From Antedon bifida (lineage: Eukaryota > Echinodermata > Crinoidea > Comatulida > Antedonidae): a stretch of DNA of 64,000 bases. The notes under the pieces were generated by a model. The model saw only the letters and a list, made by a program, of their open reading frames with translations, was not told where the DNA came from and did no database searches. The translations under genes and the position numbers were made by a program. Positions within the stretch are counted from its first letter, which is position 1, and each line of letters opens with the position of its first letter. The stretch covers positions 21,142,001 to 21,206,000 of the forward strand of contig OY727102.1 of NCBI GenBank assembly GCA_963402885.1, given 5' to 3'. Positions 17,856-58,472 of the stretch are shown one piece after another.

Positions 17856-58472
<40,617 letters not shown>

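Follow-up and report, generated by a model that had tools for sequence, protein, structure and literature searches.

The origins of microexons are hard to trace, since exons of such small size do not retain homology, and the EYA (eyes absent) gene of the crinoid Antedon bifida raises the question of whether one of them might nevertheless have retained a visible mark of its source. The gene lies on the + strand of the 64,000-nt stretch of DNA considered here (hereafter, the window), and the intron that follows its exon 10 holds an 18-nt segment that is bounded by plausible splice sites and resembles the end of that exon. EYA is a conserved regulator of eye and organ development, and the segment, if used, would offer a concrete route of microexon birth. 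Our preferred reading, on which we are evenly divided between belief and doubt, is that the end of exon 10 was duplicated into the intron and that the copy now serves as an optional cassette microexon. The features on which the argument draws are as follows (exon number 10 is that of the original prediction; our own exon model starts at 36290).

36290-36440, + strand: EYA exon 10, 151 nt, ending in phase 1
36419-36447, + strand: source copy of the repeat, comprising the terminal 22 nt of exon 10 followed by the donor GTAAGTT
36441-36581, + strand: intron upstream of the candidate, 141 nt
36578-36606, + strand: second copy of the repeat, comprising the acceptor TTAG, the 18 nt and the donor GTAAGTT
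36582-36599, + strand: candidate microexon, 18 nt, GACCTATGGTAGAAGAAA, frame-neutral, adding RPMVEE
37649-37785, + strand: next EYA exon (exon 11), 137 nt
38116-38199, + strand: EYA exon
52117-52206, + strand: EYA exon
56351-56409, + strand: EYA exon, 59 nt
56874-57034, + strand: EYA exon
57381-57495, + strand: EYA exon
57880-58102, + strand: EYA exon
58392 to the stop codon at 58470-58472, + strand: last EYA exon

The nine EYA exons from 36290 onwards, when joined, give an open frame with the C-terminal EYA domain and the end ...LDLGYL, and the E10-E13 protein matches EYA3 and EYA2 chains in the PDB (9n0y, 4egc and others) with E values from 2.6e-30 to 2.2e-26, which places the gene in the EYA family. 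The 59-nt exon at 56351-56409, which is absent from the ORF listing with its minimum of 75 aa, was recovered by motif.

The sequence bears out the original description of the candidate in its coordinates and letters, its acceptor and donor, its distance of 141 nt from exon 10, its phase 1 on both sides and the peptide RPMVEE. Immediately before the segment stands the acceptor context ...ttctttattctttag, immediately after it the donor gtaagt, and a further 1,049 nt of intron separate it from exon 11, within an exon 10 to exon 11 intron of 1,208 nt. Neither the presence nor the absence of RPMVEE interrupts the joined EYA reading frame; inclusion would read ...LAPLPEE-RPMVEE-IQTF..., where RPMVEE corresponds to APLPEE in the source copy. 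With 18 nt and both splice sites, the segment falls within the size range of microexons (at most 51 nt). Its assignment to the EYA transactivation region was too loose: the segment is indeed in the part of the gene that precedes the EYA domain, in the linker between that domain and the Tyr/Ser/Thr-rich part, and this linker, presumably disordered, is poorly conserved in comparison with EYA3 and EYA2, members of the same gene family.

How good are these splice sites? Of the 17 letters counted before the acceptor, 14 are pyrimidines; the AG-free stretch before it spans 38 nt, compared with 21-89 for the nine other EYA acceptors, and a branch-point-like CTTAC lies at 36557-36561, its A preceding the final base of the acceptor AG by 21 nt. 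By approximate weights, the acceptor (graded fair) ranks third of 10 among the EYA acceptors and the donor ties with that of exon 10 at fourth to fifth of 9, which puts the candidate sites on a par with those of real EYA exons. A total of 476,224 strand-bases contains 17 segments of 3-51 nt, one of them the candidate, in which neither site is poorer than in the candidate, and the length of 10 of these segments is divisible by three; the rate may be inflated because 8 of the 24 sources sampled are loci chosen for holding the 14-mer discussed below. This amounts to roughly one equally good frame-neutral segment per 50 kb of strand, or, per 1,208-nt intron, to about 0.04 expected segments of any length and about 0.025 frame-neutral ones. 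When the intron was dinucleotide-shuffled 110,945 times, 105 of the shuffles contained a frame-neutral pair of sites of at least this quality, and 536 did so by summed splice score. Because such pairs recur by chance both in the genomic sample and in shuffled introns, splice-site quality by itself sets the candidate apart only mildly.

RNA structure was considered as a further line of evidence and set aside. The 141-nt intron contains two arms (36482-36495 and 36548-36561) that are complementary at 13 of 14 positions, with the 3' arm covering the CTTAC, and a comparable stem occurs in 3 of 193 sampled 141-nt windows; the fold has a z score of -1.44, with 18 of 200 shuffles folding as well, and in the wider context the z score is -0.19, with 74 of 200 shuffles as good, so that by z score the folding is not significant.

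The similarity to the end of exon 10 is a stronger signal than splice-site quality. The 14-nt identity GAAGAAAGTAAGTT that was originally reported proves to be the core of a longer, 29-nt direct repeat, the two copies of which lie 159 nt apart and are identical in register at 23 of 29 positions (79%), with 12 of 18 identities in the exonic part. Since the acceptor TTAG also matches in register, the case for duplication is stronger than the original prediction knew. Several of the matching positions are explained by the donor consensus, which lends some weight to the possibility that there was no duplication and that the likeness arose by chance. The 14-mer points the same way, being unremarkable genome-wide, given that its 11 copies in the 315.6-Mb genome are equalled by 11 for the reversed control. 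Against chance likeness stand the placement of the copy, 159 nt away on the same strand with both splice sites in register, and the rarity of that arrangement: none of 100 shuffles of the window holds the 14-mer twice, as the window does at this spacing with one copy at a real donor. In a sample of 427,104 29-mers, drawn from both strands of the window and of 15 stretches of 10 kb each, no further 29-mer matches the repeat at more than 19 of 29 positions. The 29-mers at seven other EYA donors, subjected to the same test, find best non-self matches of 19-22 of 29 somewhere in these positions, which again favours chance; none of these matches, among the top three listed per exon, lies within 2 kb. 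When the upstream part is taken separately, at least 16 of 22 matches before any GT are reached in 3 of 110,945 dinucleotide-shuffled introns, and among 162 GTAAGT sites (both EYA copies counted) the best other site agrees at 14 of the 22 upstream positions, compared with 16 for the intronic copy, and that site belongs to a locus chosen for holding the 14-mer. Taken with the in-register TTAG, these statistics support well the originally proposed birth by duplication of an exon boundary, an event that we infer from similarity.

The size of the duplicated unit is another matter. The downstream flanks of the two copies show no significant homology (score 15.0, equalled by 709 of 11,504 null segments), and neither do the upstream flanks (score 8.5, equalled by 5,452 of 11,504); alignments anchored 3' of the donor are weak at all lengths tried, and 201 of 8,007 null segments do as well as the best of them, at 90 nt. 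Aligning the two 159-nt units gives a score of 30.0, which 11 of 11,410 null segments equal and which the 29-nt core largely explains. Gapped local alignment of the 180-nt surroundings gives a score of 24, which is matched by 1 of 2,000 shuffles and is also reached by 15 of 9,395 genomic and 1 of 160 GTAAGT-centred segments. The duplication may have spanned about 29 nt, or may have been longer, with flanks that have since decayed; a full 159-nt tandem duplication is possible. With flanks that lack significant homology, neither the extent nor the age of the duplication is fixed.

To see whether 36300-37700 holds a repeat element, it was compared by blastn at E 1e-3 with the rest of the window and with the loci L001-L024 (~179 kb), and no match was found. 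Repetitive sequence occurs in the window at 51080-51440, a minisatellite-like array readable as repeats in several frames, and at 40340-40474, 46750-46923 and 48643-48795, where similar-looking dispersed copies can be read on the - strand as ...CDVPIYG...PYMGTSHFF.... A separate observation concerns contig C27 (15,844 bases), which, judged from its first 5,000 bases, is apparently a mitochondrial genome: its first 5 kb hold what we take, by reading, to be cytb (- strand) and nad6 (+ strand), and the invertebrate code reads the cytb through to its final stop, with a stop count that is compatible with other codes as well.

In the scenario that we propose, a block that spans the terminal 22 nt of exon 10 and no fewer than the first 7 nt of its intron would have been copied about 159 nt downstream, within the intron. 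The coding TTAG (in CAA TTA GCA), which ends 18 nt before the end of the exon, would have been placed behind a pyrimidine-rich intron tract and would have become a 3' splice site, with the copied GTAAGTT remaining a donor. The outcome would be a cassette microexon that transcripts may include or leave out, in the linker preceding the EYA phosphatase domain; with a length divisible by three and phase 1 preserved in the copy, this cassette would be frame-neutral. As the coding TTAG becomes the acceptor AG, a single boundary duplication would yield acceptor, donor and frame together. The candidate copy also retains GAAGAA, a purine-rich motif of the splicing-enhancer type, and the fuller version of the scenario, in which a single step gave rise to a regulated cassette microexon by supplying acceptor, donor, enhancer and phase all at once, is one that we advance tentatively and with somewhat less than even confidence. 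Use of the segment as a microexon seems plausible; its splicing, optional inclusion and any effect on the protein are read from the DNA and are to be taken as predictions. If used, the candidate would retain a visible trace of its source and would exemplify a route of birth, namely, the duplication of an exon end and the recruitment of an exonic AG as acceptor. If the scenario is true, frame-neutral microexons could arise by this route in general, without any new mutation at a splice site, and one could search any genome for it by way of short local repeats of exon ends inside the following intron.

The main rival accepts that the boundary was duplicated and holds that the copy is a silent, drifting pseudoexon that the spliceosome skips, an outcome that we consider possible, albeit doubtful. 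Without helper factors, recognition of an exon as small as 18 nt is poor. In the copy, the middle 11 nt of the 29-nt repeat retain 5 identities, and each of the three codon changes (A to R when the junction base is included, L to M, and P to V) is nonsynonymous, with no synonymous change; the codon differences between the copies give no sign of constraint at the protein level. The flanks without significant homology and the frequency of equally good pseudo-sites in the sampled genome fit the silent copy as well. Drift alone, however, sits less comfortably with the fact that both sites are still of real-exon grade although the middle of the copy has changed, and none of the 6 mismatches falls on any of the 14 positions of the splice sites (p 0.011 by the hypergeometric distribution, a value biased by the segment having been picked for its splice sites). 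If unused, the candidate would itself be of interest as a clean decoy, with sites of real-exon grade that the spliceosome must ignore.

It is improbable that the segment is a constitutive small exon of the normal EYA transcript in Antedon bifida. Vertebrate EYA1 is longer at this point than the skipped form, the acceptor and donor are as strong as those of the neighbouring exons, and the upstream intron is only 141 nt, all of which would suit an exon that is always included; against this, exon 10 joins exon 11 in frame without the 18 nt. Alignment to EYA3 (9n0y) is of no help in this question: its score is 96.0 if the six residues are omitted and 96.4 if they are included, and in the latter case it starts beyond the insertion point. 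The notion that chance intronic splice sites acquired a chance likeness to the exon 10 end, aided by the donor consensus, draws on the flanks, which contribute nothing significant, and on the genome-wide and donor controls given above, and is highly improbable in view of the spacing, strand, register and upstream matches of the copy.

Returning to the duplicated exon end as a putative cassette microexon, its closest functional analogues would be the neural microexons that depend on the eMIC (Srrm234), which it resembles in being very short and frame-neutral and in having a short upstream intron (141 nt). As characterized in flies and mammals, eMIC microexons have a UGC near the 3' splice site, a UCUC-rich tract and a CUAAY branch point, weak 3' and 5' splice sites with a long AG exclusion zone, and short surrounding introns with a strong upstream donor (PMC8797185). 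The 141-nt intron of the candidate has only a TGC at 36515, which is not near the acceptor, a TCTC at 36533 and a CTTAC instead of CTAAY; by the approximate weights its sites are not weak, given their ranks among the EYA acceptors and donors; its AG-free stretch is ordinary for this gene; and it is followed by an intron of 1,049 nt and preceded by an exon 10 donor that is mid-range among the 9. With most of the cis features tested absent, we do not assign the candidate to the neural eMIC code as described in PMC8797185.

Within the EYA family, a possible link to phosphatase binding was likewise rejected. The PP2A-B55 binding peptide of EYA3 is given as residues 65-86 in PMC12246617, upstream of the aligned linker, which starts at residue 245, and as the peptide lies upstream of the insertion point, no effect on that contact is proposed; a weak likeness to the N-terminal stretch of EYA3 (0.9 bits without and -0.7 bits with the six residues) is noise. 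Among the matches listed in a search of the open-access literature, by titles and the starts of abstracts, we found neither an EYA microexon nor microexon birth by duplication of an exon end.

Two published phenomena bear on the proposed mechanism. Like the tandem duplicated exons considered in PMC9741552, the candidate lies next to a homologous source within one gene and shares its phase, with homology that extends beyond the splice consensus (29 nt at 79%). Unlike them, it is not a copy of a whole exon: it matches only the last 18 of the 151 nt of exon 10, and the similarity of the upstream flank is not significant. The candidate cannot replace exon 10 and would therefore be a cassette, not a mutually exclusive exon. 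The nearest published mechanism that we found is intron gain in potato by tandem duplication across an intron-exon (acceptor) boundary, with the donor coming from the exon (PMC4974935). In both cases, the duplication of a boundary supplies splice signals and exonic letters become a splice site; in potato, the product is a new intron, whereas in EYA the donor side would have been copied, an exonic AG would have become an acceptor, and a tiny exon would have arisen inside an existing intron. The EYA case would thus be the donor-side mirror image of the potato one.
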